64,000 nt of DNA from Cristatella mucedo (Eukaryota; Bryozoa; Phylactolaemata; Cristatellidae): contig WPIO01000181.1 of the NCBI GenBank assembly GCA_009760855.2, positions 368,001 to 432,000 of the forward strand, given 5' to 3'. Below are positions 3,809 through 63,362 of the stretch, one piece after another. Position 1 is the stretch's first letter, and the number at the start of each line of letters is the position of its first letter. The notes under the pieces are model-generated. The model was not told the DNA's origin and ran no database searches. It saw nothing but the letters and a program-made list of their open reading frames with translations. The position numbers and the translations under genes are program-made.

Positions 3809-3877
3809 CATTGGGTCTTCTCTGCTCCATCGTGCGTGCTTACATCATTACCGGAAAACTTTGGAAATTTTCTAATG
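3809..3877 (+). CDS. Exon: single degenerate leucine-rich repeat
   Basis: This 69-base phase-0 exon sits behind a strong polypyrimidine acceptor (CTCTTCTTTTCAG) and ends at a GTATGT donor. It encodes exactly 23 residues. The second half, VLTSLPENFGNFLM, fits the LxxLPxxFxxL part of the LRR consensus. The first half (HWVFSAPSC) keeps hydrophobic residues at positions 4 and 6 and a Cys where the consensus has Asn or Cys. Its length and phase equal those of the next two exons, which is the main support. A SINE-A copy begins only about 35 bases beyond the donor. It could be a decayed exon that is skipped in the mRNA. Confidence 0.7.
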
Positions 3878-7299: not shown

Positions 7300-7368
7300 C
7301 TGTCGACTTTGAACCTTTCGGGTAACAATCTGAAGGAGCTGCCTTCGAGTATGAAATACCTTATCAGC
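7300..7368 (+). CDS. Exon: single leucine-rich repeat
   Basis: This 69-base phase-0 exon is preceded by TTCTTGTTATAG and followed by a GTAAGT donor. It encodes one complete 23-residue LRR that starts LSTLNLSGNNLKELP, a textbook match to LxxLxLxxNxLxxLP. It follows the degenerate repeat exon and precedes another 69-base LRR exon, so each repeat here has its own exon. LRRs of this short type form the curved ligand- or partner-binding part of ROCO proteins. It is too short to show as an independent reading frame, and is recognised by motif plus splice sites. Confidence 0.9.
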
Positions 7369-15748: not shown

Positions 15749-15817
15749 CTTCAAATTTTGAACTTATCTGGCAACCGTCTGACCTCGATTCCAGACGGCT
15801 TCAAGGATCTGCAAAAG
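15749..15817 (+). CDS. Exon: single leucine-rich repeat
   Basis: This 69-base phase-0 exon is bounded by the acceptor TTTCTCTTTGCAG and the donor AAAAG|GTAAGT. It encodes one 23-residue LRR that begins LQILNLSGNRLTSIPDGF and ends LQK. It keeps all hydrophobic positions, the Asn and the Pro of the consensus. It lies about 8.4 kb from the previous exon. The intervening intron carries a hAT transposon and LINE fragments. Codon use and repeat type match the neighbouring LRR exons. Confidence 0.9.
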
Positions 15818-19245: not shown

Positions 19246-19259
19246 TGCATGTATCGATA

Positions 19260-20652: not shown

Positions 20653-20787
20653 TCAAAGTGAACGTTACAATCACCCTGTAAGTGTTAAGGATGAAAAGGC
20701 TGTAAAGAGAGCGGGAAATTTTGAAATAAAGAAACTAGAGATACACGACCAAATGGATGACTATTGACACAGGCGATGACTAACCGT

Positions 20788-23608: not shown

Positions 23609-23788
23609 AACAAATCCTAGCTGCTTAAACAGCCTCTTTTTGTATAGCGACAGAAGAGCTTTTACGGCTATCACCACCGCTTGCAGTGGCGATACAGGAT
23701 CGCCCACCACAGTAATCGAACCCACGACCTCGGGACCGAGGTCATGAAAGCAACCGCCTTACCTAGTGCGTGCCATTACGGCTCACCA
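23609..23788 (-). mobile_element. SINE-A, copy 3
   Basis: The reverse complement of the family: ACAGCCTCTTTTTGTATAGC, body, AATCGAACCC (box B reversed), the palindrome GACCTCGGGACCGAGGTC, and head ending GGCTCACC. Confidence 0.85.
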
Positions 23789-24347
23789 AGTTTTGTGATG
23801 CCGTCGCTCGGCCAAGTCAGGTTAGCGCTCGCGGCCGAAAGACCCGCGGCTCGCTCTCCCGACCAGCCAAGACGACGAGGAAAGCTTATGGGCGACTAAT
23901 TGCTTGCTAGTCTTTGATAGCAATGAAAGATGAGAGATAAGAGTCATTTACTGAGATTCTAGACATATAAGAGCGGACTCACAATTAATGGCCTAGGCAA
24001 TTTGGCTGCAATTCCGCGAAATTCTCTGGAGAGCTGTACTAGCTAAATCAAGTGCGAGCTGAAGACTCGATTGCTCGGGGAAGCTACGTTGTAATTTTTA
24101 TTTTTTAAGAGTACTGTGGACTGTTTGTGATTATCCGGCTATGAGTTTCTTGGTCATATATTTGCCTCCTTAGATTATTCGCTGTCGATAATCTAAAGTT
24201 CGTGCGAAACAAATGCAAAGGTACTGACCACATGCTGATGGAATAGGAGCTGTGATAGCTAAAATATACAATGCTCATACACCGTTTCGTTGCGTTTCGG
24301 TAACTCGCTTTCAGCCTTAGCTCATATGAAGCTGCTTTACTTTATAG
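23789..24347. other. Intron sequence before the two-LRR exon
   Basis: Nothing recognised other than the acceptor of the exon at 24348. Confidence 0.4.
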
Positions 24348-24488
24348 CTGGAAAATCTTGACATAAGTGGAAATCTGGAAATTACGCAATTTCCTTCCGT
24401 CATTTCCAAGCTTCGCAGTCTCGTAATACTGAATATTGCATTTTGCAATATTTCCAAGTTACCAAACAAAATCGACCAACTTCGATCA
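24348..24488 (+). CDS. Exon: two leucine-rich repeats
   Basis: This 141-base phase-0 exon lies between the acceptor GCTTTACTTTATAG and the donor TCA|GTAAGT. It encodes 47 residues, read as a 24-residue repeat starting LENLDISGN followed by a 23-residue repeat starting LVILNIAFCNISKLPNKI. The length is a double unit plus one codon, so the intron between these two repeats is absent or was lost. The second repeat has Cys next to the consensus Asn. No other complete exon is visible in the introns on either side. Confidence 0.9.
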
Positions 24489-38649: not shown

Positions 38650-40579
38650 GGAAGAAGTGTCAATAGGATAACAGAGCTTCCGGTGGATTTAGCAGAGAAG
38701 CCTGCTTCGCTTCAGATCTTGAACGTTTCTGGCAATGCTTTAAAATTACCACCAGAGGAGATATGCGTTCTGGGTTTGCCGGCTATTAGGCAATATCTGA
38801 AAGATTTTCGTCAAGGTGGAAGGCCCTTCTGTGACGACAGCATTTATATGCTGGGTGACACTGGAGCCGGCAAATCCAGCTTGGTTAGGACCCTGAAGGA
38901 AAACAAGCCGTGCGCCACGAACGAAGAAGACCGTACGCGTGTTCTGCAGCAAGACTTTGTAAAAATTGGTGACTATAACGTGAACATTAATGACTTCGGC
39001 GGTCACGAAATCTACCAAGCAGTTCTGCCCATATTCCTCCCTCCTAAAGGTCTTGGAATCTTGGCTTATGACTTGTCGCATTCATGGGAAGTTCAAAAAA
39101 ACAAAGTCCGTCGATGGATGACAACTGTCATCTCTAGATCGCCAGGGATGCATCTCATCGTAGTCGGAACCCATGCAGACCTGCTGGACGAAAGTGTTAG
39201 AGCCGAAAAAACTAATGCGATGCAAGCGTTTGTCAAAGACACATTTGCTACTGCTAGGGCTGAATGTGAAAGGTTAATTCTTAACAGTGAGAGTAAATCA
39301 ACTTCTTCCAGTTATGGAAAAGCATATTCTGGCGCGAATGCTCCCTCATCAGAAGACCTTAAAAAGTTCTTTCCATCGACCAGCGCGGCATCAGAAACGT
39401 CTAGTGGCCCGCCGCAAAAAAATTACGAAGACATCCTCAAGCAGAACCTACGAGACTTACAATCATCAAGTCAGGTCGTACTTAGCTTCAGCTGCAAGGA
39501 GGCCAGGGCAGGTGACGGCATTGAAAAGCTAACAAAGATAATTACGGAAAAAATAAATCGCGGTGGGCAGATGCCGCATTCTTGGATAAAGTTTATGGAG
39601 TCCCTACTTGGCTACAGAGGCTCGGACGCATTGACGTGTCTTTCGATGGGGAAAGTGAGATCACTTGCTGGGCCCATTTCTGTGCAGCCAGAAGCACTTG
39701 TAACCATACTTCGCTACCTCGCTAGTACCTCACAAATTATTTGGCTCGAAGGACGCCAAAAGCTTGCCGATTACATTTTCCATCGAATAGAAGTGGTTCT
39801 GAATATCTGCAAGGCAGTGTTGCATCATAGTTTGCCTTCAGACAACGACATGCTGGCTGACGACTTTCGCAAGTACAACACCGGTCTAATTACAGACCCA
39901 CTGCTTAAACATCTGCTCAAGGAATACGAGCAAGGTGACGATATTGCCAGGGAGCTTCTGCAAACTTTCAACGTGTTATGCAGAGGATATGGAAACGCAA
40001 GCCTTTTCATGATCATTCCATGCCGCCTTCATGACGATGAAGTTGAAGTTAAATCAAATGTCAACCTAGAGGATGCATTGACCAATATCTTACCAATCGT
40101 TCGCGTCAAGATCAAATTTTTCACTTTGATAATTCCGCACGCCCTATTCGAGACAAGCCTTGCGTCTCTGCTGAATGATATCAGTGCTTCTGGAAAAGCT
40201 GAGCCTGTATATTGGAGAAACGGGCTATGGTACGAGATGGATTCCTTACAACTTCGATATGAGCGAATTGAGAACGGCGTTGAAGTAAGAGCCGTTGCTG
40301 GACCAGATGGTCACCTGCAGGACCTGTGGAAGGAAATGCACTACTTATTGGGCTTAATCGCCAAGTACATACTCGATACTTGGCCTGGAGCGATGCCCAC
40401 AGTCCGCTTTATTTGTCCGACTAGTATCTATACATCCTTCAATCAGGAAAACGATGCTCACGGTCGCGATACTGATGTACAAGAACTTCGTAGCGATGAA
40501 GAGCCGAAGGTTTCCAGATTCTCTTGCACGAGTTGTGGACAGTGGATTCCGCGAGCCTTTTTATTCAACTGTAAACCAG
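38650..40579 (+). CDS. Exon: last LRRs, Roc GTPase domain and COR domain
   Basis: This large exon runs from the acceptor TTTTAATTGCAG to the donor CCAG|GTTTGT, 643 codons plus one base. It first completes two LRRs (LQILNVSGNALKLPPEE, exon residues 21-37). The Roc GTPase follows. Its P-loop is GDTGAGKS (exon residues 69-76, bases 38854-38877), switch II is DFGGHE (115-120), the guanine-recognition motif is THAD (174-177) and a G5-like SCKEA lies at 281-285. Between THAD and G5 is a serine-rich, probably disordered insert (about 210-265). COR starts near MPHSWIKFMESL (308-319), and its C-terminal half includes IIPHALFE and the WRNG stretch. The Gln usual after the DxxG glycine is His here. The exon end carries CTSCG and a later Cys. 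ROCO membership is clear; the biochemical activity is inferred. Confidence 0.95.
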
Positions 40580-40830
40580 GTTTGTCTGTCAATCTCGATT
40601 TTATTTACTGGTTACTTTTTCATACTACACTTATCCCGTTGGTTTCCTATTCAAGTATCTGTGAGCGACTTTTGCAGCATGGATTAAGTAAATGCACATG
40701 ACATTTTAAGAACGTATGCTCTTGGGTTTTCTTACCTAGTGACCTATTACTTCTTAACAATGAATGAAATTTCATAGACAATCTATATTATCCCCATGAA
40801 AGAAAACTTTTACTGTCAACATCTTTTTGG

Positions 40831-41014
40831 TGAGCCGTAATGGCTCACTTGGTAAGGCGTTTGCTTTTCACGACCTCGGCCCCGAGGTCGTAGGTTCGAA
40901 TCCTGTGGTGGGCGATCCTTTATCGCCACTGCAAGCGATGGTGAGAGCCGTCGAGGCTCTTCTGTCGCTATACAAAAAGAGCCTGTTAAATCAGCTAGTA
41001 TTTATTTATTTATT
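40831..41014 (+). mobile_element. SINE-A, copy 4 (best copy)
   Basis: Head TGAGCCGTAATGGCTCACTT, perfect palindrome CGACCTCGGCCCCGAGGTCG, box B GGTTCGAATCC (exact pol III consensus), body TTTATCGCCACTGCAAGC and tail TATTTATTTATTTATTTA. Confidence 0.92.
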
Positions 41015-41029
41015 TAATAATTATTAGAA

Positions 41030-42990
41030 TGCTACAACATGACACTTGCTGAGGTATTTAGCGAGATTGTACGTCTGACTTTGGGCAATGTGCACCCTCG
41101 CCAAGACGGTCTGTGGTTTACCATAGATATTAAACTTGTTATGTCCCATAACCACAAGTTTGAGAAAGCGTGTAAATGACAAGGACTGAATGGCCATCGT
41201 AAGCACACGAAAACAGCTGTACATGATATCAATTAATCCTAGAAAATGCCAAGTCTAGCTTCTGAAAAATATTGTTGCATCACAGATGGACGATCCAAAA
41301 ATGCTAACTTCTGCCATCAAACATATCCTTACCGCTGGCAGGTTGAATCTAGCCGATCGCTTGTCTAGCTTCTTTTTCAGCAAGCTAGACAAGATCAGAG
41401 AGTCCATCTCTAAGGTTGCAGCATCCCCTCTCGACTCCTGTCCCTCAATAACATCAACGAGAGCATCCTATCCCTCAAGTCCATGCACTAACTCAATATC
41501 TCCATTTAAGAAAACCACGATTGACATCATTCTGTAATTAATCTCCCAGTCAAAGAATGCTTCTATTTTTCTAGACGCTACTTCCATTCTCATACGCCTA
41601 CGATGCATAGATCGTACGATGCCATGCTTAGCTCACGTAATAAATATGTCCTTAGCATCAGGTCATGTCACTGCACCTTTCAAAAATATTTTTTGAAAGG
41701 TGTGAATTAAAAAAAAGAAAACTTTGACCCAGAGAAATTAAGCAACAAAACTCCAGCTTCCACCCTGCCTCCTTCCACCGTATCTATCAAACACACATTG
41801 TGGCAGACCAGCAGAACTCTTATGTTGAAACCTCAAACCAAGCAAGTAAGTTTTAGTTTGGATTTAGAGATAATCCCTCCGAATACTCAGAATTGTTTAG
41901 GCAGTATAAAGAACTTCACAGGAATGCAGTTTTGTTTAAAGTCTCTCCGCTTTCTTGCTTGATCATTCCCCAGCATTTGATGCTATTGATCACAGTCCTT
42001 CTGGAAAGCCTCTGATCATGTGTGGCCATCACTGGCACTGCATGGCAATGGTTCAGATCTTATCTTATCTTAGTGGGCGACTCCAGAATATTAATCTGAA
42101 TGGATAAATATCATCCGAATTACCACCGAAGTACGGGGGACCCCAGGGCTCAGTGCTTGGTCCTCTTGATTTCAGAGTCTATGCTATTTCTGTAGCCGAT
42201 GTGATCAGCAGGCACAATCTTGGCTTTCACTGCAGTGCAGATGACACTCAGCTGTACCTTCGCTTTGATCCCTTCCAGCCCTCAGCCACGTCTAATTCTC
42301 TACACACCCTTGCTGCATGTATCGCTGACATCTGCATATGGATTTAAACACACTTTATCAAATTAAATGATGGAAAAATCAGCTTACTTATTATGGGCGA
42401 ACCAAGTGTGACTCAGCAACGGGAAAGACTATCGCTCAAAATCGGCTATTCTAGCAAATCTCCTGTACATCTGAGCGTATTCTAGGTTTCCTGTTCCTCC
42501 GTGAGCTTTCAATAGATGAGCACATCTGCTCCACTCAATTCCAGTCCAGTCTGCTGCAGTCAACTCTGCCTTCTTTCAGGTGCATAACCTTGCTAAATTT
42601 GGGTGTGCTTAAACAGAGATACTACATTCAAATTGGTCCATGAGTTGGTAAAATCCTTCTGTACTTCTGTTATCCACTGGTCCAGCAACTCAGGCAGTCA
42701 GGCGCTTACAGTCGGTGCAAAGTTCTGCAGCTAGACTTGTCTTTCAAGAGATTCGAGGTTACTACGCCATACCACTTCCTGTCAGGCTGCACTGGTTCGT
42801 AATCAAGCAGCGTATTCTTCAATGGTCTTCTTCTTTTTTTATTTCTCTTAGGCCTCTTTATTCTCTGGCTCTAGCCTACCTGTAAGAACGACTTACTCAG
42901 AAGGCATGCATCGTACAGATCACTGCTCTACATCTAATCGTTTAGATAAATCTCGTATGAACTTTGAAACCTTAGAAGTCCATGGTTTTA
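41030..42990 (+). mobile_element. LINE-A copy, heavily mutated
   Basis: It starts in the linker (YNMTLAEV; RQDGLWFTIDIKL). 42153-42347 encodes VYAISVADVISRHNLGFHCS followed by ADDTQLYLRF, so the YADD motif has become SADD. ORF pieces continue to about 42980. The SINE-A copy 4 tail abuts its left end. Confidence 0.82.
41674..41702. repeat. 13-bp inverted repeat inside LINE-A
   Basis: CACCTTTCAAAAA pairs with TTTTTGAAAGGTG across a three-base centre. The second arm is an inverted copy of the element's own CACCTTTCAAAAA. Confidence 0.85.
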
Positions 42991-43065
42991 TTTTTAAAAG
43001 ATCGGACTACTCTAACCTTTAGGCCAGATACGGCTTAGCTATTACTCCAGTCCGGCCTAAGGCCC

Positions 43066-43229
43066 CTATAATAATAATAATAATAATTCACTTGATAAAG
43101 CGCCCTCAGAGAACTTAATCTCTCTCTAGGCGCTTTACATTTGCTGCAAAGTGAAATGCAATTGAAATTAAATAAAATCATGCTTAAAAAACAAACAAAA
43201 TGAATAATATGCTTAGGGGTGACATGCAC
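43066..43229 (-). mobile_element. LINE-A 3' end fragment
   Basis: AATAATAATAATAATTCACT tail, stem-loop (GCGCCCTCAGAGAACTTAAT) and the start of the 3' UTR, stopping at GGGGTGACATGCACAG. Confidence 0.88.
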
Positions 43230-43393
43230 AGCCTACGTAGTTATGTATTGTTCAATCCGGCGTAGTTGAATTGCCACCATTTTATTCCTCCGTCATTGCC
43301 ACTGATTGCAGTTCGCAATGTGGGCCGCGTTTAAATTTTGAACCGATGTCAAGAGCTTGTATGGAACAAAAGTGCCTGACCAGGGAGGAATTA

Positions 43394-43726
43394 TAATAAT
43401 AATGCACTTGATAAAGCGCCCTCAGAGAACTAAATCTCTCTCTAGGCACTTTACATTTGCAGCAAAGAGAAATGCAATTGAATGACGAGTAATTTCATGC
43501 TTGATAAACAAGCAAAATGAGTAACATGGTTAGGGGTGACATGCACAGGGTCAGCATGCAAATGTGGTTAGTGGCAGCATGCACAGTGTCAGCAGGCATA
43601 AGAACGTGAAGGACGAATCACAGGAACCCACTAAATGCTGTCCTAAATAGGTGGGTTTTTAAGTTCTTTTTGAATGTGGTCAGGTCAGGGGATGTTCTGA
43701 AGCAAGTCGGGAGGGAGTTCTAAGAT
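43394..43726 (-). mobile_element. LINE-A 3' end fragment
   Basis: AATAATAATGCACTTGATAA tail and stem-loop, the complete 3' UTR with its repeated GTCAGCATGCAA / GTCAGCAGGCAT words, and the ORF end. Confidence 0.9.
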
Positions 43727-43864
43727 AATGTCAATTCCTATACATGCCATGTGCGTCTGTTTCGACTGTTTGCTTGCTTATTTTGCCACACCAAATCCGC
43801 CAGGCTCACTTCTTCAGGTCCAATGTGCCCTATCGACCTCCTAAAATAACCTAGTATTGAAAAA

Positions 43865-44212
43865 TCTTTGCCGGCCCTTGCTTTAGTTCGTATGAGCCCA
43901 AAGCTTCATTTACTTCCGGCTTCCCCTGATATGACGATATTTAAAAAGAAGCTTAATCACGCATGCATTTAGTTGGTTCTTGTGATTCGCCATTTTCGTG
44001 CTTATGCGTGCTGAAACTGTACCTGCTGCTATTAACATATCTATAAGTTGACCCTGTGCATGCGGCAAATCACAGCGTTACACTGATGATATTGCGAGTA
44101 TTACCTACAATTAATTTGGCCATGGCTTCTTTACTACATCTGCAACGTGCCTACCAAGAGATCCAGCTCTCTGTGAGTGCCAAATAAACGTATTATTATG
44201 ATTATAATTAAA
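43865..44212 (+). mobile_element. LINE-A 3' end fragment
   Basis: ORF end (GACGATATTTAAAAAGAAGC), 3' UTR, mutated stem-loop (GTGCCTACCAAGAGATCCAG) and ATTATTATGATTATAATT tail. Confidence 0.78.
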
Positions 44213-47200
44213 GTTAAATTTGGTGAACTAAATTGTTTGATAAGGTCTTAAGGCCATGCCGCCAGGGGCATTTGACCTTATCATCACTGAAACTCTTAGA
44301 TGCTGCTTTTTGCTTCTGGTTTAAATCGTTTCACCATTTGCATCTGGCCATTGCTCTCTATAAAGATTTTTTAATGTTCACTTGTTTACTATTGTGAATT
44401 TCAATTGCTAATTGAAGAACATTTGGGACCTGAAAACTTGAAAATTGCGAAAGATTTTCTGGAGAAACTTCGTAAGTACTTTTGCTTAACAAAATTATCA
44501 GTACTGTAACAATGTAAAATGGTGTCAGGTTTATAGACTGCAAAGTAGCTCTTGAGTTGAGTCCTAAGGCATTTATCACGTGCAGGAATTAAATGTAAGG
44601 CATCAAGCATTTTGTAGAATGCAGCTGACTTGACCGCAGCGAACTGCATATCCATACCCCACCATTTGTGATTGCACGCCTCGCTTCCGTGAGCGCTTAG
44701 GGTAAGAGCTATGTTGAAAACTCCGTGATAGCACCGGCTGATGAATTAACACTAGAGCTTGAGTAATTCAACAGCCTCATTGATATAGCGGAGGGAAAGT
44801 CATAGTGATTCACCGCTTCCATTTGGCTAAATAAATAGTTGCAGCACAACTCGAAACCACAATGGCTGTGATGAGGAAGAACCTAAAGGTAGCACTTGCT
44901 AGTATTTTATACAGTCCTTTACGTGTTTTTCCAGCGGATAAGAGGCATTTTGCTTATATCCCGCATTAAATTGTTGAGCTTTGTGTGTAGAGTGTACTTG
45001 CGAAAAGTTCTCCTGCGAGTAACATTTGCTTCGTGGTAGGAAAAATGCTAGCTTGATCTAAACAAACGGAACCTTACATGCCTATGTAAACTTACATGCC
45101 CAGCTGAAGAATGTTCGGTTAGAGAATGGTGGCGTGGATTAAGTGGTTCAGGTTTCTTAGAGCTTATGTAAAATGGAAAACTTTAAAATTTTTTGTTCGA
45201 AGTCTTTAGAATGAAAATGGCAAGGCTTTTGTATGGACCCAAAGAGAATCTAATCTCTGTTCACAAGCCCTAAATTCGCTGTGCCAGAAGAATGAGCTAT
45301 CGAAAGAATTCTTTTTTGAAAATTCAACACAGGGCTTAAAAGCCTAGGCTTTGAAGTGCCACTAAATTTCCTTCAGACGGATCCCGGTGAATTCATCAAA
45401 TGAACATGGAAGTGTACAATTACGAATGTAGTGATAAATTGCGACCATTCTCCCTCTGTCCACTGATCCTGGAATCTTAGACTTTAAATGGCCGCTGTAC
45501 AGTACTGTACTTGAGTTCTGAGCACCAGGGTGGTTTCTAAATGTATGCACATACTCTAACTTCAATTTAATGCCGAGATGCAACCGTCGCATCTTACTGT
45601 AACCAGCGATTGAAGTCCGAAAATAAAGCAAACTGACTTCAGTCCAGGTTCAGGACCACAAATAGGCCGCCTTGACCGAAGCTGTGAATCTAGCGAGCAG
45701 CCGGAAGGACTGAACGCAAGCCTTTGCGCCGAATGAACCAGTTGCTGCTGATGCGTTTCTCTAGATATTGACCGACCGAAGCTTTTCCCCAGCTCACTTC
45801 TGAAACGCACTCACTTCCTGGGCTGCTTTCACTGTGCAGTCTGAATGCAGTCATCTTCATTGCATGTTCACAGAAACGTTGCCTAGCATAGCTAAAATAA
45901 GCTGTGCTAAAATGCTCCTTTTCTGAAATCCGTTAACAGTAAAGCAGCACAAATAGCGAGGTAGTGGGTCTTTTCAGATACCGGAGATTGCCCGCAAGGG
46001 TGCATCTATCATCTACAGCTGGGGCAGCCTCCAAGCACCGCTAGCCAGTCATTGATGCTGGTATAGCGAAGCTAGGAAAGCGGAGAAGCAATCACGAGCA
46101 TCGTTACATCAATATCGATTTCGTGCCATTAACTCGGTACATTTTATTTATGAGCCGCAGAGGCGAGGCACTCGCGTACAGAGCTGCAGGCCGCAATACA
46201 CTGCTCACATCGAGGCACCGGATATCTGAAGCTGCGTCGTCGCACAAAAAAGCTCATTGACATGAAGGGGCGAACATTCACGGCATTTAATTCTCAACGA
46301 AACTAATACCTGCACACCGTGCCATGTATATATCGTCGCACGCTCAAGCATTGGCTTCCCAAGACAAATGTGCAGAGAAAAAATGGTCGGAACGAAGAGA
46401 GTATGGGATAAAAGAGAAGTCGTCCCCGTCATCAGAATGTGTGAGACATGTGGCATGTAGCACTGTCGGCCTTACTGAACGATAATACAAATAAAGCCAC
46501 GAATAAATCACGGTTTCTCATTGAGTTTTCAATTAGAGCTGTTAACTACCGCGTGACACTCGGTGGAGATGCTATCAGCAGCACTATCGCAGATCGTTAG
46601 AGTAACGGAACCCGACAACCAAACATCGGTCGTACGGATCAGCAGTTTTTACAGTAGGCCTCGTCGAGAGTTACTGCAGCCCCGTACTCCTAGGTGGTAA
46701 ACGTCGGCACAGGAAGACTAATCGCTCTGTTGATCATGTGACGACTTAAGGCTCAGTTGCAAGACCCGAGAATGTTGTCAACAACTTTGCACCTGCGCTA
46801 CATTGGTAGGATAATCTTTAAGGCCACCTCTTAGATTGACCTTTTAGATTGACCTCTTCAATTGACCGTGATGCAGTTATTACAGTTATCCGGCTTGCGT
46901 ACCTTTTTCTTAGTCGCAGCATACATTTTAAAGGACTGCTTGTTTTTCGAGGAATTTACTTTAAATTATCATAACTATTTCGACAGTCATTTAATGCAGG
47001 CTTTAAATAGTAGCTTCGTTTTTGAATTCTAAATTTTGGCAGAGCTGACACCTTCTTAAACTTTCAGAGCCTCAATTCTGCAAGCAGCGCCTTACTAATT
47101 CAGTCAAGATTGAATCCATGATTCATTCTCAATGCGATCCAACGTAGCCTCGAGCTATGAAACCTGAATAACATGATGGTAGCGTGTCCTCGGCAATGAT

Positions 47201-47464
47201 TTAACACTTTATGAAATCAAATGCCACACGTGCTCTAAAGAGGCTTCTGATCTAAAGTCTTTCGCCTTCGAGCGCAGCCTAATAATAATGCTAAGCCCAG
47301 CACAGATGTTTGATTGATATCGATAAAGCTAGCGCCTTGAAGAAGCGAGTCGTAAATTATGCAGCCATACAAATACACCTGTCGGCGATGAGCACACTAG
47401 TATTCAAGAATGCATTTACTTTATCAACATGTCCGTGTTCTTAACATAGAGCGATACAGACTGA

Positions 47465-47466
<2 letters not shown>
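44213..47466. other. Intron sequence, nothing recognised
   Basis: About 3.2 kb, the longest stretch without an identifiable feature. Several short open frames lack any domain or repeat homology I can see. No splice-consistent exon fits the phase-1 to phase-1 requirement between 40579 and 48235. Confidence 0.4.

Positions 47467-47556
<90 letters not shown>
47467..47556. repeat. (GA)n microsatellite
   Basis: About 45 GA units followed by a G run; homopurine on the + strand and able to form H-DNA. Confidence 0.97.
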
Positions 47557-47562
<6 letters not shown>

Positions 47563-47569
47563 CATGTGT

Positions 47570-48234
47570 GTGATGCACCAGCATATCGTATAACTCACGT
47601 CGATGCTCAGTAGCAGATCTGAGTATTTTTTACTGCCACTGATTGTAAAAAGCCTGCAGCTTATCATGGTCTATTTTTTACGCAAATTCCGAATGCCTCG
47701 ATGAGTAGTACGGCCAAGGCTGCGATTCTTGGTATCGAAAACGAATGTCTATACTTAGCAATTTCCAAAAAAATTTGGAGCCTGTTGAAAATGCTTTGGT
47801 TTGCATCACACCACCAGCCTGGTTATCGCTACATATGTACAGTGCGTCCGGAGTTTTAACCACAAGCCAGTGCTCATCAAGTTTTCTGTCCTGAAATAGT
47901 TGAGTATTTGTAGTGGTACTTCGCAGCAGTAACCTGGTTACCCCTACGTATGTGCAGTAAGTCCGCGTTAAAAACGATAATGTAAAAGCAATTGAAGGTC
48001 AGCAATTCAGCTGTCCTTGAATAGTAATGCCATTCACTGGAACTAGGCGTGCGATTTGGATTCTCGTCACTCTCTTAATTTTCTATATAAATCATAGGTA
48101 CGGCGAGTCTTACGAAACTTCTCAGTTAGTAAATGCCTCAGATTTTCCAAATTACTTGGAATCTCTGCAACGATCGGCAATTTTATACGGAATATGTTTA
48201 GCAATGTCGAAGCGTTTTCTTGTCTTCTTTTTAG
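47570..48234. other. Intron sequence before the CARD exon
   Basis: Nothing recognised. An open frame from 48027 enters the exon at 48235 but crosses its acceptor, so I read the upstream part as intron. Confidence 0.45.
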
Positions 48235-48416
48235 GTGCCGAGAAAAAGCGAAGCGAAAATCCTGCAGAACGCATCCACCAGCCAGATTTGATTACGAGAT
48301 TCGTTGCTGCACTGCCGGAGCTGGCAAACAGGATGGACGGAAGCGCGACTTCACAAATGGCCCTTAAATTATATGCATGTGGGATAATAAGCGAAGACCA
48401 AATGGAGGAAATTGAG
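48235..48416 (+). CDS. Exon: N-terminal half of a CARD
   Basis: This 182-base exon lies between the acceptor TTTTCTTGTCTTCTTTTTAG and the donor ATTGAG|GTGCGA. Its first two bases complete the glycine codon split at the end of the Roc-COR exon, and it ends on a full codon. It encodes a charged linker (AEKKRSENPAERIHQ), then DLITRFVAALPELANRM and ALKLYACGIISEDQMEEIE. The pattern of a hydrophobic helix followed by a Gly-Ile/Val-Ile-(S/T)-E-(E/D) turn and an acidic helix is characteristic of CARD helices 1-3. A death or DED fold is less likely because of this turn. The upstream in-frame extension is intron sequence. Confidence 0.85.
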
Positions 48417-48852
48417 GTGCGATTGCCGCTCTGTGACATTGTCTGCGCCTGCATTTAGAGCCTGAGCCACTGTGCGCGTGTGCGTCCTGTGTCTGTCCAA
48501 GCCAGCAGCTGAGGCGAAAAATACACCTAAGAAGCACACAGTTTCAGGATGATTGATGAGAGTTAAAATATCATTGCCATGCGCATACATTCTATTTGGG
48601 GATGCAGGCGTGAGCAATTACGACATTGCTAACTGTGCGCTACGAATAGCTCTATAGCTGTGAATGGCTCGAACGGCTATTGAAATCCTGAAGCTAGTTT
48701 AGCTGCTTTGAGAAGAATTCATAAGACTGTAATAGTCAAAATGTTAACTGTTCATTTCATTCAGAACGAATAGGAAAAGGTGTTTATGGACATTAGGGTT
48801 TGCTGCAAGCGTGCAGGCAGTAATGGTGGCATAATCTTTCCCGGCGCCGTTC

Positions 48853-49060
48853 ATCGGCAACTAACCACATTTGCATGCTGACCCTGTGCATGACCCTGTG
48901 CATGTCATCCCTAACCATGTTATTCATTTTGTTTGTTTATCAAACGTGATTTTACTCTCCATTCAATTGCATTTCTCTTAGCAGCAAATGTAAAGCGCCT
49001 CGAGAGAGATTAAGTTCTCTGAGGGCGCTTTATTAAGTGCATTATTATTATTATTAATAT
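48853..49060 (+). mobile_element. LINE-A 3' end with the clearest terminal stem-loop
   Basis: 3' UTR (CTAACCACATTTGCATGCTG), then the stem-loop at 48991-49032. TAAAGCGCC pairs with GGCGCTTTA and an inner AGAGA/TCTCT, followed by TTAAGTGCATTATTATTATT. Confidence 0.92.
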
Positions 49061-49185
49061 CTGCCACCTGGCCCCAAGAATTCTTACCGCTCGCACCATA
49101 CGTCTGAACCACTCAAAATTACAGCTTCGTCGACATTAAAGTGAACAACCCATGAGGCTTCCTGTGGGCATGCGAACGTATATGA

Positions 49186-49256
49186 GATATAAGATATATA
49201 CGGTATCAGCACGCACGATACGATCGTGCGTGCTGATATAATATATATCTTATATC
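49186..49256. repeat. Long hairpin, two perfect 15-16 bp stems
   Basis: Outer arms GATATAAGATATATA (49186-49200) and TATATATCTTATATC (49242-49256). Inner arms TATCAGCACGCACGAT (49204-49219) and ATCGTGCGTGCTGATA (49223-49238). The loop is ACG and there is one 3x3 internal bulge. Confidence 0.95.
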
Positions 49257-49259
49257 GTG

Positions 49260-49845
49260 TATGCGTGGGATTATCGTATTCCACATCGTATCGTTTTGTA
49301 TCGTATCGTATTGCACATGGCGTTCAACAGCAGACCTGGATGCCGCTCCCTCTGCCGGGGCTCTTGAATTGAGTGCCTCCCTCAGGAAGGCTAGACAAAG
49401 TGTGCGAGAGAAGGTCAAGGTCCGGTCTACAACGAGTCGTGTTTATTGTTTCAAGCCACTAACCAAGATCTCCCGACAGCGCTTAAATCAATTGCTGCAA
49501 TTCAATAGTCATGCGGCATGCTGCAGCCCGAAGGGCCACTCTTAAATCGCGTCTGCGAAGTGCTCGTTCCATATTCGGTTTTACCATCTTATGATATGAA
49601 TTAATTCTTGGCGATGCCTTGAGATGTTTGCCGCAATCAAGACTGAGCCGAAGTCACTAGCAGCGCGATCAAAACAAACGCCACTCCAACAGGCTTCCTT
49701 TTATTTCACACCAGAAGGTCTATTAAACTTGATTCGCTGTATTAGCAATTGCGGCTTGTTCCTCGGTGAATTGCTGTCATCTTTAAGCGCTCTTTCGAAT
49801 CTGTTGTCCCGTCTCCTTAAAGCAAGCTTAAGCAAGCAAGCTTAA
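49260..49845. other. Intron sequence, nothing recognised
   Basis: Contains short CGTATCGT repeats just right of the hairpin; no family recognised. Confidence 0.4.
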
Positions 49846-49985
49846 TGCTAGCAATGTTTGTCGTCAGCTAGCAATGGCTGTCGTAAGCTAGCAATAGCTA
49901 TCGTGAGCAAGCTATGGCTATCACCAGCTAGCTATAGCTGTCGTAAGCTAGCTGTAGTTTTTGCAAGCTAGCGGTTGCAGCCGTG
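49846..49985. repeat. Minisatellite, 20-bp unit x 7
   Basis: Seven units like AGCTAGCAATGGCTGTCGTA at exact 20-bp spacing, diverging towards the ends. Each unit carries the palindrome AGCTAGC(T). Confidence 0.9.
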
Positions 49986-50820
49986 CTTGATCGTCCTCGA
50001 TGGTACAAAGATTTGCTTCTTTCATATTTTCTCCTGTTCTCCATTCGGGTCTGTATCCCAGCAATAGTTCCTTTCTCATGCCAGGTGATTCAAACTTTAA
50101 TTTGGGTAACTCCTAACTAACTCTCTCTGCCGCACCCATGTGAGAAACTTCGCTCAGCTGCTGCTTCCTCTTCTCCAACGACTCACGTGCAGAGCCTAAA
50201 TGCGCATCAGAGTTAGTCGTTCTCGGTCGTCAGTGATTGTGTGCTGCTAACGCCTTCTATTGCCGCATTCTTCTCGTCTGACCGCATGCGGATGTTTTTC
50301 TATTTGCCGTACGTATCCCCTTCGGTGTAAAAATCGTCTGACAACTTACGAATTGCTGATTTGCTAATTTGCGAAAGTCTGCTCCTCTGTCTGAGCATGA
50401 AATACGCCCTGGCTCAGATATCCTGCAGTGGTCAGCAGATGTTGTTCTAGCCAGGCATTTTATGTGCAAACTTAAACCAGCATTCAAAGATACATACAAG
50501 GCATACAGCAATCAAAAGCAACAAAGATAAGGACTGACTAATAAGGCTCGGCTGGCAGATACGGGCTATTGTAGGTTTTCCACAATCTCAGTGGCAAAAG
50601 GCGATTGCACAGTCCTAAAGATTTGAGCTTGACCGTAAGCAGTCTTCTCGACCTCACTCCAGTCAGCACAGCACCCTGCGATCGTTGCACTGAACGGTTT
50701 TTTTCCACGAGCAGCAAGACAGACACAATCAGCGAGTCCTGCCCCGAGATGACATACTAGTTAGAGTCTTCACCTTCACTCGTTGCACAACCCCAGTTTT
50801 AGCCGCCAAGCCTCCTAATA
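49986..50820. other. Intron sequence, nothing recognised
   Basis: About 0.8 kb without identifiable features. Confidence 0.4.
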
Positions 50821-50821
50821 A

Positions 50822-51110
50822 TGCCATGGTAATAATTATAATGATACATTTGCACAGTACCCTCAGAGAACCGTGTCTCTCTCTCTCTCTCTCTAGGCAC
50901 TTTACAGATGCTGCGTAAAAAGTATGACAGCGTGTTTGATGTTAGCATCCGAAAACAGCAGGCACAGCGTAAGCAATTACATTCATGCGTAGGACGAATC
51001 CCAAAGACCCAGCAAACGCTGCAGAAAAAGGTGCGTTTTCAGTTTCTTTTTCAATTTCGTCATGTCAAGGCACGTTGTGATGTGCATCGGTAGTGAGTTC
51101 CAGGCGTTGG
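50822..51110 (-). mobile_element. LINE-A 3' end fragment with CT expansion in the stem-loop
   Basis: AATAATTATAATGATACATT tail, ACCCTCAGAGAACCGTG, then CT repeats in place of the inner stem, AGGCACTTTACAGATGCTGC and a degraded 3' UTR. Confidence 0.78.
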
Positions 51111-51244
51111 TTTATTATCAGGTTGATCCTTTGATTGCTCAGTATAAGGAGACGGCTAGCAACTTTAGACACCGTAACCACTGCTCTCCTTCGGAGGTGC
51201 CTCGATACACTGTTGCCCGGCTTAACTGGGATAGCTAAAGCCGT

Positions 51245-51690
51245 CCTTAGCTACAGCTTATGTCGCAGCATCTTTCAAAGAAGCTATTGGTAGAGTTATC
51301 TCATTAAGAAATTAATACCAGACCAGAAGAAAGTATTCAACTCCTTCTCACTTACGCCTTTACTGTCGAAAACACTGAGTGGAACAAGTAATAGCGGATT
51401 ACTTTAAAATTGCATTGCAATATCAAAGCTAGAAAATACGATCCACACTCTGGTTTTATTAAAAATTACTCCACAGCGTCAGCGCTCTACCGTCTCTGCA
51501 AAATGAATGAACTTTTCATTATGGATGACTTCGTTAGTGTCTTACTAGTTCTACTAGATTCCGTGGCAGCTTTTCACAGTTGATCTCTAAATTTAATTTG
51601 AGTGCCCAGCGCCTTGCCTAGGCATCCCAGACACTGGGCGATAATGATTTTAGGTGTAATCTCTTTGGTTAAAGTAGAGGGTACATGTAA
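51245..51690 (+). mobile_element. LINE-A RT N-terminal fragment
   Basis: Degraded homology to the PAPFKKA, LLSKTLE, HSGFxxNxSTxSAL and LVLLDxxAAF blocks, in the family's order and spacing. Confidence 0.65.
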
Positions 51691-51827
51691 ACGGCCAAAC
51701 ATCTGACTACATATCTTCCGATTTAGTCGCTGAGAGACTTTCAGAAGCATCAATAGCCCTAGCCAATCTTATGTATTGTGCATTGTACTCTCTTTTTCTT
51801 TCCCAATCTCGGAGCGCTGTCCGTGTC

Positions 51828-52012
51828 TCTGTCTCTCTCTCTCTCTCTTTCTCTCTCCAATCCACTTTGATTTGCTCTCTCTTACTCATTTCTCTACCTT
51901 AAAAGTCTGCCATTTCTCTTCCCTCTCTGTCTCTGTCTCTCTCTGTCTCTCTCCTCTCTCTCTCCTCTCTCTCTCTCTCTCTGCCTCCCTCCCCCTTTCT
52001 CTCTCACTCTCC
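51828..52012. repeat. CT-rich imperfect microsatellite
   Basis: Several (CT)n runs broken by GTCTCTGTCTC and CCTCC, about 185 bases of homopyrimidine-rich DNA. Confidence 0.9.
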
Positions 52013-53166
52013 CTCTGCTATTTGTATCCTTTACTCGGCTTTACCTCTGCTGCTCAGTCCTCCCTACGATCTGTCATCATTGGTAAATAGCTACAACACG
52101 ACACTAGCTGACACGCTAGACGAGTTTGCACCTCTGACAAAGCGCACTGTGCGCCCTCACCCAGACGGCCTATGGTTTACCACAGACATTAAACTAGCCA
52201 GGTCTACTAAGCACAAGCTTGAAAAAGCATACAAATGATCAGGACTGACTGTCCATCGACAGGCTTATGAAGACTACTGTAGGTCGTACCAATCGATCCT
52301 AGCAAAGGCCAAATCTAGCTTCTGTAAAACCATTGTTGAAACACGGATGCACAATTCAAAAATGCTGATGTCGACGATCAACCATCTCCTCAACTGCTCT
52401 CAGATTAGCTCCTTACCTGATAATCCTTGTGATGATATAGCAGATCGCTTCTCTCGATTCTTTGTGCCGAAGATAGACAAGATCGGGGAGTTCATCCCGG
52501 CGATGACAACATCCCCCTAGAATGTTGTTCCCCAATTCCTGGCTGGACCTCAATGTCTCCATTTAAGCAGGTCACTAGTGATCTCGTCCAGAAGCTCATA
52601 TCGCAATCAAAGAAGACAACAAGTCCTCTAGACCCTACTCCCACTGTCCTGCTTCTACGTTGCATTGATCTGCTGCTGCTATGCATAACTAAGATCATTA
52701 ATATGTCATTAGCCTCAGGTCATGTCCCAGCGCCTTTCAAAAAAGCTGTAGTCAGGCCACTTCTCAACTTCTCAAGAAAGCGACGCTAGACCAAGAGAAC
52801 TTGAACAACTACCGCCCAGTCTCCCTTCTACTATTCCTATCAAAAACACTGGAACGGGTCGTGGCGGATCAGATGAACTCATATCTTGAAACTTCAAATC
52901 TTGCTAGTAAGTTCGAATCTGCTTTAGAGCTAATCACTCCACAGAGTCAGCATTGCTTCGGGTATACAACGACCTACTTAGGAATGCAGACATAGGTAGA
53001 GTGTCTCTGCATGTTTTGCTCGATCTTTCGGCAGCTTTTGAAACCATCGATCACAAAGTTCTTCTAGAGCGCCTCTCATCTCGCCTGGGCATCACTGGCA
53101 CTGCTCTGCAGTGGTTCAGGTCCTATCTCAGTGGGAGACTCCACAGAATTGATGTGAATGACAAAT

Positions 53167-53338
53167 AACAAATCCCAGCTGATTGAACAGCCTCTTTTTG
53201 TATAGCGACAGAAGAGCCTTTACGGCTATCACCACCGCTGGCAGTGGCGATAAAGGATCTCGCCCACCGCAGGAATCGAACTCACGACTTAGGTCGTGAA
53301 AGCAATCGCCTTACCTAGTGAGCCATCACGGCTCACCA
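53167..53338 (-). mobile_element. SINE-A, copy 5, inserted in LINE-A
   Basis: Complete SINE on the minus strand. LINE sequence on both sides repeats ATGTGAATG(G)ACAAA (53150-53164 and 53339-53353), the target duplication. The internal palindrome is partly deleted. Confidence 0.9.
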
Positions 53339-53794
53339 ATGTGAATGGACAAAGATCATCCGAGGTACCTCTAAAATATGGGGTAACTCAGGGCTCCGTG
53401 CTAGGTCCGTTTCTTTTCACGGTCTATATCCCCCTTGCTGATGTGATTGCCAAGCACAATCTAGGCTTTCGCTTCTGTGCGGATGACACTCAGTTGTGCC
53501 TTTGCTTTGATCCCTTCCAGCCTTCAAGGCCCTCGAATTCTCTCAACTCACTTGTTGCATGTATTGACGACATCCGAACATGGATGGCAGAAAATTTTCT
53601 AAAACTAAAAGGTGATAAAACTAACTTATTAGTTATGGGCACACCCAGTGTGGTTCAGAAATTGGAAAGGCTGACGCTCAAAATTGGCTCTGCCAGCTTA
53701 TCTCGAGTTAAATCAGTTAGAAATTTGTTCCAAAGTGGCCTCTCGTTAGATGACCACATCAGCTCCTCATTCAAGTCTGCCTACTTTCTGCTAA

Positions 53795-54148
53795 TAACAA
53801 TAATAATAATAATGTACTTGATAAAGCGCCCTCAGAGAACTTAATCTCTTTCTAGGCGCTTTACATTTGCTGCAAAGGGAAATGCAATTGAATGGTTAGT
53901 AAAATCATGCTATAAAAACAAACAAAATGAATAATATGATTAGGGGTGACATGCACAGGGTCAGCATGCAAATGTGGTTAATGGAAGCATGCACAGTGTC
54001 AGCACGCATAAGCACGTGAAGGACGAATCACGAGGACCCACTAAATGTTGTCCTAAATAGGTGTGTTTTTAAGTTCCTTTTAAATGTGGTCAGGTCAGGG
54101 GATGTTCTGACGCAGGTCGGGAGGGAGTTCCAGGCTTTGGGAGCAGCT
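53795..54148 (-). mobile_element. LINE-A 3' end nested in a + strand LINE-A
   Basis: AATAATAATAATAATGTACT tail, reverse-read stem-loop, the full 3' UTR and ORF end up to CCAGGCTTTGGGAGC. The host LINE stops at TTTCTGCTAA and resumes at CAGCTACACAAC, so about GCTA is duplicated. Confidence 0.9.
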
Positions 54149-54915
54149 ACACAACAATGCTAAAATTTGAGCTTGTTTAGATAAGGATACCACGTCCAAG
54201 TTGGTCCATGCATTTGTAAAATCCCGTCTTGATTTCTGCAACTCTCTGCTTGCTGGCCTACCGGCATATGCAATCAGGTGATTATAGACGGTGCAAAACA
54301 CCGCAGCTAGGCTTGTCTGTCGTGAGTGTTGCCACATCAAACCACTTCTCGCCGACCTGCACTGGCTACCAGTCAAGCAACGGATTGACTTCAAGGTTTG
54401 TCGCTCACTTTTAGGTCACTTCATTCTTTGGCTGCAGCCTATCTCTCAGATCTACTCGCCCACCAGGCCAAGCATCGTACCACCCGCTTTTCGGAGTCCA
54501 GCAGTCTAGAAATACCTCATAAAAACCTTAAATTCTTTGGAGACCGTGCATTTAGTTTATATGCTCCCAAATCCCGGAACTTCCTCCCGACTTGCGTCAG
54601 AACATTCCCTGACTTCACCACATTTAAAAAGAACTTAAAAACACACCTATTTAGGACAGCATTTAGTGGGTCCCTGTGATTCGTCCTTGATGTGCTTATG
54701 CGTGCCTACACTGTGCATGCTGCCACTAACTACATTGGCATGCTGACGCTGTGCATGTCACCCCTAACCATGTTATTCATGTTTTTCAAGCATGATATTA
54801 CTCACCATTCAGTCGCGTTTCCCTTTGCAGCAAATGTAAAGCGCCTGGAAGGAGATTGATTTTTCTGAAGGCGCTTAATCAATTGCATTGTTATTGTTAT
54901 TATTGTTATTATTAT

Positions 54916-55345
54916 TATGAACACTAACTTTCTTCAGTGGTCACCGGGGCGATCACTGTTTGGGCAGTCTTTTTAAAGTGATTTGAGTGCCCGCGTTTCA
55001 GAAAAAAAGACACTGCCTCGATATTTTCAGCTAGCTTTTCAAAAGTGTTATCGAAATCGATCGATTTCATCTCACTATCGTCGATATGTATACTTAATTT
55101 GGCATCATAAGTGGAATGCATGATATTTAAGTACATTCTTGTCGAGTGATGACAACCCCTTTACCACATATTTTTAGCCACGTTTATTTTCTCAATTTAA
55201 ACCATATTATTTCGCCGGTTGTATCGCAATGTTGGTTGTTTCTGCATTTCAAGTACTACAACTACTAATGGCTATCAGGGTTTCATAACTAGGCTTGCAA
55301 AAATAATCTTAAAAGAAAATGGTAGCCACTACTTGAGGCAAGGTT
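54916..55345. other. Intron sequence, nothing recognised
   Basis: Short AT-rich stretch without family signature. Confidence 0.4.
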
Positions 55346-55351
55346 GATAAT

Positions 55352-55352
<1 letters not shown>

Positions 55353-55383
<31 letters not shown>

Positions 55384-55404
55384 GAGCCTTATATATATAT
55401 ATAT

Positions 55405-55445
<41 letters not shown>
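55353..55445. repeat. (CT)n-(AT)n microsatellite
   Basis: CT units followed by AT repeats interrupted by AGAGCCTT and ACAAAT, directly abutting a LINE-A 3' UTR at 55446. Confidence 0.9.
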
Positions 55446-55449
<4 letters not shown>

Positions 55450-56775
55450 GGACGAATCACAGGGACCCACTAAATGCTGTCCTAAATAGGTGTGTTTTTA
55501 AGTTTCTTTTAAATGTGGTCAGGTCATGGGATGTTCGGACGCAGGTCGGGAGGTCGTTCCAGACTTTGGGAGCATACGAGCTAAATTCATGGTCTCCAAA
55601 GGATTTAAGGTTTGTACGAATTATGTCCAGACTTTTGGATTCCGAAAAGTGGGTGGTACGATGCTTGGCCTGATGGGGTAGTATATCTGAAAGATAGGCT
55701 GGAGCCATAGAATGAAGAGACCTAAAAGCGAGTGACAAAACCTTGAAGTCAATCCGTTGCCTCACTGGTAGCCAGTGCAGGTCGGTGAGAAGTGGAGTAA
55801 TGTGGCAACTGGGACGCTCACGACAGACAAGCGTAGCTGCCGAGTTTTGCACTAGCTGCAATCGCCTGATCGCACATGCTGGTAGGCCAGTAAGCAGTGA
55901 CTTTCAGAAGTCGAGACGGGATTTCACGAATGCATGGACCAAATTAGATGTGGTATCCTTATCTAAACAAGCCCTAATTTTAGCAATGTTATGAAGCTGA
56001 AAATAGGCAGACTTGACTGTGGAGCTGATGTGGTCGTCTAACGAGAGGTCGCTTTGGAATATGACACCTAGATTTCGAGCTGATTCAACTGGAGATATGC
56101 TGGCAGAGCCAATTTTGAAAGTCAGCCTTTCCAATCTCTGAATCACACTGGGTTTGCCAATAACTAGTAAGTTAGTTTTATCATCGTTTATTTTAAGAAA
56201 ATTTGCTGCCATCCATGTGCGGATGTCATCAATGCATGCATCAAGTGAGTTTAGAGAATTTGAGGTGCTCGAAGGCTGGGAGGGATCAAAGCTGAGCTGT
56301 GATGGTACACTAGGTAAGGCGGTTGCTTTCACGACCTTGGTCCCGAGGTCGTTGGTTCGATTACTGCGGTGGGCGATTCTTTATCGCCACTGCAAGCGGT
56401 AGTGATAGTCGTAAAGGCTCTTCTGTCGCTATACAAAAAGAGGCTGTTTAATCAGCTAGGATTCATTCATTCATTCAAAGCAAAGGTACAACTGAGTGTC
56501 ATCCGCATAGAAGTGAAAGCCTAGATTGTGCTTGGCAATGACATCAGCAAGAGGGAGAGTATAAACCGTGAAAAGAACCGGACCTAGCACAGAGCCCTGA
56601 GGTACTCCATATTTTAGAGGTACTTCAGATGATCTTTGTTCATTCACGTAAATACTCTGGAGTCTCCCACTGAGATAGGACCTGAACCACTGCAGAGCAG
56701 TGCCAGTGATGCCCAGGCGAGATGAGAGGCGCTCTAGAAGTACTTTGTGATCGATGGTATTAAAGCTGCCGAAAG
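55446..56775 (-). mobile_element. LINE-A copy lacking its 3' stem-loop
   Basis: It starts in the 3' UTR (AAGGACGAATCACAGGGACC), then ORF 55457-55861 (CHITPLLTDLHWLPVRQRID to TFKRNLKTHLFRTAFSGSL), 55904-56270 (DDKTNLLVIGKPSVIQRLER) and, beyond the SINE, 56478-56775 (YADD region, GVPQGSVLG reversed). The terminal stem-loop is replaced by the AT microsatellite. Confidence 0.9.
56292..56475 (+). mobile_element. SINE-A, copy 6, inserted in LINE-A
   Basis: Head TGAGCTGTGATGGTACACTA, palindrome ACGACCTTGGTCCCGAGGTC, GGTTCGATTAC, body and a CATTCATTCATTC tail. GATCAAAG on the left and TTCAAAG on the right mark the target duplication in the LINE. Confidence 0.9.
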
Positions 56776-56839
56776 ATATGCAGGCTATTGCTTATGCTTT
56801 TTTCAAATATGTTGTTGTTCATAGCGCTGCATGCAAAAT

Positions 56840-56938
56840 ATCGAGCACTGCACATGTAAATCGCCTAGAAAGAGATTGGATTCTCTGAGGGCGCTTTATT
56901 AAGTGCATTATTATTATTATATTAATATATTATTATCA
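56840..56938 (+). mobile_element. LINE-A 3' stem-loop fragment
   Basis: GTAAATCGCCTAGAAAGAGA, GGGCGCTTTATTAAGTGC and ATTATTATTATATTAATA tail. Confidence 0.85.
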
Positions 56939-57266
56939 CTGTGTCGTACATGCTGAATTATTGTGAGCTACAGGTCTTTCCACATTTCAGGCATTGTGCA
57001 GAGATACCCGTACTAGTTGGGGGAGCGCGGTTATAACAGTAGCGACATTGTAAACACTCTCATTTCTAATGCTTTGATTATAACTTTGTGCTTTCAAGAT
57101 AAGAACTAAGCGGCTAGCATGCTTAACGGGCAACCCAAATTACGTGGCTTGTAGATTTGCAATCTTGCTAGGCAGAGTGTGCGATTTGATTTCTTGACAG
57201 TTCGTTTATATTTAGTTTGTCTTCCCAATTGTTATCAGCGTGAATTCCCCTGCATTTTTGCCACAG

Positions 57267-57416
57267 GCTGAACTTACACAATTCAAGATGGCAAGAAATC
57301 TTATTCTTAAAGTGAAACGTAAAGGTTCTTCGGCGATTGCTACATTTCTGACAGAACTGTCTTTAGACGTTGGACTTAAAGATCTAGCAGAGTCTATTCT
57401 TAAGGATACACCGTGA
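57267..57416 (+). CDS. Terminal exon: C-terminal half of the CARD and stop
   Basis: This 150-base phase-0 exon has the acceptor CATTTTTGCCACAG and ends in a TGA at 57414-57416. It encodes 49 residues that read as CARD helices 4-6: KMARNLILKVKRKGSSAIAT, then FLTELSLDVGLKDLAESIL. This matches the CARD pattern of a basic helix ending in (R/K)-(R/K)-G, a short hydrophobic helix and a final L-A-x-x-(I/L)-L. Together with the preceding exon it gives one complete CARD of about 90 residues at the protein's C-terminus. The phase match and the helix order across a 9-kb intron are strong evidence that the two exons belong together. Confidence 0.87.
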   Translation, partial: AELTQFKMARNLILKVKRKGSSAIATFLTELSLDVGLKDLAESILKDTP

Positions 57417-57820: not shown

Positions 57821-57826
57821 AATAAA
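57821..57826 (+). promoter_or_regulatory. Candidate poly(A) signal AATAAA of the ROCO-CARD gene
   Basis: AATAAA lies about 400 bases after the stop codon and is followed within 40 bases by GT/T-rich sequence (TTCCTTTGTTTTGG). It is the first canonical hexamer I see downstream of the stop, so a 3' UTR of about 0.4 kb is inferred. Confidence 0.5.

Positions 57827-62982: not shown

Positions 62983-63362
<380 letters not shown>

Follow-up and report, generated by a model that had tools for sequence, protein, structure and literature searches.

Does the ROCO GTPase gene of the bryozoan Cristatella mucedo that lies in a 64,000-nucleotide stretch of contig WPIO01000181.1 (assembly GCA_009760855.2, forward-strand positions 368,001 to 432,000; hereafter the window, whose numbering is used throughout) end in a CARD, and what kind of protein would such a gene encode? 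A sequence-only reading of this DNA had joined an exon coding for Roc and COR domains to two distant downstream exons, and had suggested that the product would be a signalling receptor comparable to the NLRs. Based on the splice phases, the domain matches and the recurrence of the same split CARD in three paralogs, we propose that the locus very probably represents the 3' portion of a ROCO gene of animal type with the domain order LRR-Roc-COR-CARD (LRR, leucine-rich repeat), in which the CARD would be the output module.

Gene structure and the identity of the C-terminal domain

The in-frame joining of exons 38650-40579, 48235-48416 and 57267-57416 was borne out, as the coordinates, splice dinucleotides, phases and stop all agree. 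The donor at 40579 leaves phase 1, which the acceptor at 48235 takes up, the junction 48416/57267 is in phase 0, and the stop codon ends at 57416, with an AATAAA downstream at 57821. The predicted gene within the window comprises 870 codons, including the stop, in seven exons with no internal stop and with AG/GT at every boundary; its introns measure 3.4-14 kb. Its features are:

3809..3877, + strand: LRR exon of 69 bp, phase 0-0, one repeat; the least certain of the LRR exons (AG/GT, acceptor 7.1, donor 3.4, codon usage -0.049)
7300..7368, + strand: LRR exon of 69 bp, phase 0-0, one repeat (LRR_8 match of the joined LRR segment)
15749..15817, + strand: LRR exon of 69 bp, phase 0-0, one repeat (LRR_8 match of the joined LRR segment)
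24348..24488, + strand: LRR exon of 141 bp, phase 0-0, two repeats (LRR_8 match; acceptor score weak)
38650..40579, + strand: single exon with the last LRR, Roc, COR and a C-terminal Cys motif, ending in phase 1 (Pfam Roc; COR by profile; donor common to paralogs)
38842..39180, + strand: Roc domain, exon residues 65-177 (Pfam PF08477 match)
39517..40494, + strand: probable COR region, approximate and divergent (profile comparison)
48235..48416, + strand: linker and first half of the CARD, phase 1 to phase 0 (splice and CARD scores; homologous exon in three paralogs)
57267..57416, + strand: second half of the CARD and stop, terminal exon (homologous exon in three paralogs, one with an apparent frameshift)
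57821..57826, + strand: AATAAA, candidate poly(A) signal (sequence match only)

The joined tail of 110 amino acids matches the Pfam CARD model above its curated cut-off of 23.9 bits (31.3 bits, 2e-7, covering positions 18-72 of the 85 in the profile) and no Death model, so the earlier call of a CARD, made from motifs, stands; its numbering of that domain as residues ~800-903 does not apply, because the gene extends upstream of 38650. Taken singly, the first half matches no Pfam family and the second matches CARD at E 0.15. Comparison of the joined tail with PDB sequences using phmmer returned nine sequences up to E 10, every one of them a CARD protein (NLRC4, RAIDD, APAF1), and the NLRC4 and RAIDD alignments cross the splice junction without a gap. 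NCBIfam gave no family on the CARD tail.

Because a reader can choose exons so as to build a domain, we examined the join against chance by scoring in-phase pairs of an internal and a terminal exon with a CARD hidden Markov model (HMM) made from five PDB sequences. Under splice-score thresholds the claimed pair ranks first of 1,879 plus-strand pairs, with 27.2 bits versus 10.6 for the next, and the best of the 392 pairs on the minus strand reaches 2.5 bits. When any AG/GT downstream of 40579 is admitted (95,083 pairs), the top seven all use the junction 48416/57267 at 26.9-27.5 bits and vary solely in the first acceptor, 48235 being fifth at 27.2 (best 27.5); the best pair without this junction scores 15.4 bits. 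A chance join of the CARD exons is rejected by these scans. Furthermore, none of the 4,257 AGs in the window outscores the acceptor at 48235, and that at 57267 lies in the top 0.2%; the donors at 40579 and 48416 are weaker, in the top 4.4% and 1.9% respectively. With a codon-usage score trained on the Roc-COR exon, exons 48235-48416 and 57267-57416 give +0.221 and +0.197 bits per codon, and every one of the 1,370 overlapping intron windows without a stop scores lower than either exon.

The Roc-COR family and the tails of its members

Searching the 572-Mb genome with the Roc-COR exon returned 68 matches, 23-50% identical (self aside), at about 30 separate places, which include fragments and broken copies, several of them with stops. 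The Roc-COR frame is uninterrupted over the matched length in 15 paralogs, giving 16 members with the window gene. At all 15 distinct loci that reach residue 643 the exon ends at the same residue, in phase 1, with CCAG/GT (the slash marks the boundary); these 15 loci, the window and some near-copies included, stand for 18 of the 30 rows examined, three being repeats.

Downstream DNA was read for four paralogs (C660, C150, C107 and C114), and in the first three the Roc-COR exon is followed, on its own strand, by exons for the same split CARD, with phases 1 and 0 as in the window. In C660 a 173-bp exon lies 5.2 kb downstream and is separated by 198 bp from a terminal exon of 150 bp, the joined CARD scoring 4.3e-12 (46.3 bits); in C150 the exon pair starts 13.5 kb downstream (joined CARD 2.8e-11, 43.7 bits); and in C107 the first CARD exon lies 8.6 kb downstream and, joined with that part of the second exon which precedes an apparent frameshift, gives 1.9e-6 (28.2 bits). 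The window tail led to both C660 exons and to the first exon of C107, whereas the exons of C150 and the second exon of C107 were located with tails found before. An exon-pair scan with the CARD HMM unaided by these tails gave the C660 pair the top score (13.0 bits) among 86,970. Unsplit CARD exons occur at just seven places in the 572 Mb (E up to 0.001), and this rarity makes three chance neighbours very unlikely. Since three paralogs carry the same split CARD, both a chance join and an unrelated neighbouring gene become unlikely explanations, and the domain order LRR-Roc-COR-CARD is supported.

Across a tree built from 17 Roc-COR rows, the four genes with a CARD are spread out (four label changes), and because of this scatter the tree fits a CARD tail that is ancestral in the family, which amounts to a prediction for the remaining members. 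The underlying alignment, A7, holds 15 of the 29 paralog loci (L105-L133), the others being repeats of one locus, broken or partial; C660, which was matched in two pieces, was added to the tree only. The tree was midpoint-rooted for drawing alone, and its placement of the window beside L105 joins two long branches and may be false, so only the scatter is used.

Parts of the family appear to have decayed: the second CARD exon of C107 (L138 ~1684-1840) holds an apparent frameshift, and several Roc-COR matches contain stops. Exons for Death domains were found at 11 places genome-wide (E up to 0.001), none of them on contigs with Roc-COR matches, a search that split Death exons would escape. At two places, C45:621461/626730 and C133:2148147/2156474, CARD and Death exons lie 5-9 kb apart and possibly belong to genes for CARD-Death adaptors.

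The Roc domain and a probable COR domain

The Roc half of the Roc-COR assignment is secure: Pfam PF08477 matches the 38650 exon at 9.5e-12 (45.6 bits, cut-off 27), the nearest PDB sequences to this region are those of LRRK2 Roc, and Roc was matched in all 16 family members scanned (E up to 0.1). The translation of the window gene retains an intact P-loop, GDTGAGKSS, and an intact GTHAD, which we take to be a GTPase motif. The COR half leans the same way, below the Pfam cut-off and with moderate profile support. Sub-threshold matches to COR-A (Pfam, E up to 0.1) occur in five of the 16 members, the best at 0.0012. Aligned as a whole with 33 bacterial sequences, the Roc-COR region is co-linear (probability 97.8), but that signal is carried by Roc, and the COR part compared with bacterial COR as a single sequence or as four sequences gave no clear result. 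A COR profile of the 16 family members against the 33 bacterial COR sequences scores 30.6 (E 0.0027) over 268 co-linear columns, a score reached by none of 60 column shuffles. The bacterial alignment draws on 33 of 84 loci, after exclusion of the plasmid loci, of near-copies and of loci that lacked a long, clean match. We consider a COR domain after Roc to be likely.

Several observations weigh against an LRR-Roc-COR-CARD protein. COR stays under the Pfam cut-off in the window gene, COR-B reaching 16 of 27 bits (E 0.011); as a single sequence it was equalled by 8 of 100 shuffles; and the hhalign probability of the family profile is just 11%. As for the tail, its PDB matches are weak (best E 0.087 with phmmer), and a genome-wide search with it returned the window only, so that the tails of the three paralogs escaped it as well. 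In the 8 kb downstream of the C114 Roc-COR exon no CARD exon was seen, a distance beyond which the C150 pair lies (13.5 kb). The exons of C107 and C150 were located by similarity to tails already known, and the unaided exon-pair scan was blank in the first 10 kb of both and in C114.

Beyond COR, a Cys-x2-Cys motif is seen in 14 of the 16 rows of alignment A7, the remaining two rows ending before it, and bacterial Roc-COR proteins likewise have Cys residues after COR-B.

The LRR array and the extent of the gene

Exons 7300-24488, together with the start of the 38650 exon, match LRR_8 of Pfam at 1.5e-21. The LRR exons of the window were found by a repeat scan; all are in phase 0 and most are 69 bp long with one repeat each. 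Upstream of the window further LRR exons of 69 bp lie at -2682, -4785, -6934 and -10210, with one of 78 bp at -21927 and one of 144 bp at -23462. Because phase and type agree we group them with those of the window, which suggests, if they belong together, a single gene of at least 81 kb. A search for the first exon and 5' end of the gene gave only two weak candidates, which we did not use. A more distant run of LRR exons (L098-L101, -52415 to -38935) may be part of the same gene or of a neighbour and is not claimed here; the genome search with Roc-COR lists no second match on the contig that carries it.

Relation to known ROCO proteins and NLRs

The novelty that the sequence-only reading implied for a fusion of CARD and ROCO is too high. 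The placozoan Trichoplax adhaerens is described as having at least 17 ROCO genes and, among its ROC-COR proteins, some that carry CARD and death domains (PMC4104024); like the bryozoan gene, though likened by description only, these unite ROC-COR and CARD in an invertebrate rich in ROCO genes. With this precedent the fusion itself is already known and the surprise is lowered; what is less expected is that many genes form a family in which single LRRs occupy exons of their own. Genes of the types ROCO-TIR and kinase-ROCO-Death-TIR occur in sea anemones (PMC5094078), and ROCO-TIR proteins in Aplysia (PMC9334734); in these, too, immune adaptor domains are joined to ROCO, but the domains are TIR or Death rather than CARD. 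The LRR-ROCO genes of brown algae are expanded, carry one LRR per exon and have been proposed to act as immune receptors (PMC11378527, PMC4104024). Their exon unit is 72 bp in Ectocarpus versus 69 bp in the window gene, and they belong to a different lineage, being described as LRR-ROC-COR without mention of a CARD. Among the open-access papers that our searches listed, we saw no description of an LRR-Roc-COR-CARD family of this gene structure.

Among vertebrate ROCO proteins, LRRK1/LRRK2, MFHAS1 and DAPK1 share the Roc-COR core, preceded by LRRs in the LRRK proteins and MFHAS1, but end in WD40, in nothing (MFHAS1) or in a death domain (DAPK1), whereas the window gene ends in a CARD. The LRRK proteins have a kinase domain after COR. 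In the window gene no kinase was matched on the plus strand of introns 40580-48234 and 48417-57266, a scan that a kinase in short exons could escape; CARD and stop follow. DAPK1 has a kinase before Roc and no LRR; in the window gene, whose N-terminus was not found, LRRs adjoin Roc and the tail matches CARD, not Death.

NLRC4, NOD1 and APAF1 combine a sensor, a nucleotide switch and a CARD in one chain, as is predicted for the window gene, and the CARDs of NLRC4 and APAF1 are among the PDB sequences nearest to its tail. The switch of the NLRs and APAF1 is a NACHT or NB-ARC ATPase, where the window gene has Roc; NACHT and NB-ARC are absent from the Pfam list for the Roc-COR exon, a list in which Roc and Ras are above cut-off and matches with E above ~0.1 are mostly filtered; the N-terminus of the gene was not found. 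NLRs carry the CARD at the N-terminus and the sensor at the C-terminus, so that the order in the window gene is the reverse of theirs with Roc replacing NACHT.

Bacterial LRR-Roc-COR proteins share the order LRR-Roc-COR-output, with modules other than CARD, and are 20-25% identical in the Roc-COR exon. A scan of 76 of their tails found 19 with TIR_2, two with CHAT and one with EAD11; 75 of the 83 matched loci had a long uncut tail (seven short, one cut), and L004 was added by hand. This tally is not a survey, as all the loci except the plasmid ones are relatives of one cyanobacterial protein, and the EAD11 of L004 and the CHAT of L002 had been identified before it was made. These bacterial tails support a layout of sensor, switch and output for the window gene by analogy, and no particular function. 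Two plasmid-borne LRR-Roc-COR proteins lie at L002 1623-6227, ending in the caspase-like CHAT, and at L004 2355-5477, ending in EAD11.

Proposed function and its alternatives

A plausible role for the window gene is that of an NLR-like signalling receptor. By analogy with LRR-bearing ROCO and NLR proteins, the LRR array of the predicted spliced product would bind a ligand or partner and restrain Roc-COR, and a change of Roc between its GTP and GDP states would alter a dimer mediated by the predicted COR fold; a GTP-dependent change of the COR dimer is known for bacterial Roco. The C-terminal CARDs, freed or clustered, might then seed CARD-CARD assembly, which is established for CARDs generally, with a caspase, a kinase or a Bcl10-like adaptor as partner, leading to an immune or cell-death output. 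Whether the input is microbial we judge to be about an even question. Extending this to the family, we tentatively suggest, with somewhat less than even confidence, that up to ~30 loci encode inflammasome-type receptors of the LRR-Roc-COR-CARD order, built on Roc in place of a NACHT ATPase, whose CARD, interrupted by one shared intron, was inherited and whose LRRs diversify by shuffling of single-repeat exons. If this is true, CARD-signalling receptors of animals rest on two unrelated nucleotide switches, and there is an animal counterpart to the bacterial LRR-Roc-COR proteins whose output modules are TIR, CHAT or effector-associated domains. A CARD-bearing ROCO would also offer a direct route to how changes of the Roc-COR dimer drive an output, a question that to our knowledge is still open for LRRK2.

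The alternative that survives best, though we find it rather unlikely, accepts the LRR-Roc-COR-CARD protein as a non-microbial scaffold for apoptosis or NF-κB signalling in stress or development. CARMA1 is a CARD protein. LRRK1 binds CARMA1 physically and raises NF-κB activation (PMC4863158), which speaks for this reading. Indirectly, the ~30 loci, several of them with stops, and the use of one LRR per exon argue instead for a resemblance to diversifying families, and diversification of this kind has been proposed for the ROCO genes of brown algae (PMC11378527).

It is, moreover, very improbable that the window holds a family member that is silent or in decay: stops in several members, the apparent frameshift in the second CARD exon of C107 and the LINE (long interspersed nuclear element) fragments within the 3.4-14 kb introns of the window gene speak for it, but the 870 codons run through seven exons without an internal stop, every boundary is AG/GT and the P-loop and GTHAD are intact. 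Another very improbable alternative supposes two genes, an LRR-Roc-COR gene without a CARD, whose last exon continues past the donor at 40579 as far as a stop at 40701, and a separate small gene downstream of it that codes for the CARD alone. It could draw on an open frame with ATGs upstream of 48235 and on the Roc-COR frame being open to 40701, but we reject it on the acceptor at 48235, which no AG in the window outscores, the codon-usage signal, which is +0.221 bits per codon in the exon that opens there and falls to -0.124 in the same frame immediately upstream, the donor common to all 15 distinct loci that extend to it, and the three paralogs in which Roc-COR is followed on the same strand, in matching phase 1, by the same CARD exons.

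Other elements in the window

Returning to the LRR-Roc-COR-CARD gene, we considered whether its two CARD-side introns hold another gene, and rejected this for the plus strand, which the scan covered, as Pfam (E up to 0.1) gave only reverse transcriptase and low-complexity matches. LINE-type open reading frames lie in introns at 16200-17585 (- strand), 26525-28039 (+ strand), 53293-53844 (+ strand) and 55457-56380 (- strand); of these, the copy near 53.3-53.6 kb reaches the Pfam cut-off for RVT_1, and the others were recognised by likeness of translation only. Neither Rfam nor a tRNA scan returned any match on the window. Two similar tRNA-like stretches, at ~3912-3997 and 40831-40917, which ARAGORN and Rfam do not match, are perhaps a tRNA-derived short interspersed nuclear element (SINE). 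Finally, positions 62985-63361 hold 33 copies of the 7-bp repeat AGGGTAT beside a (TA)77 run.

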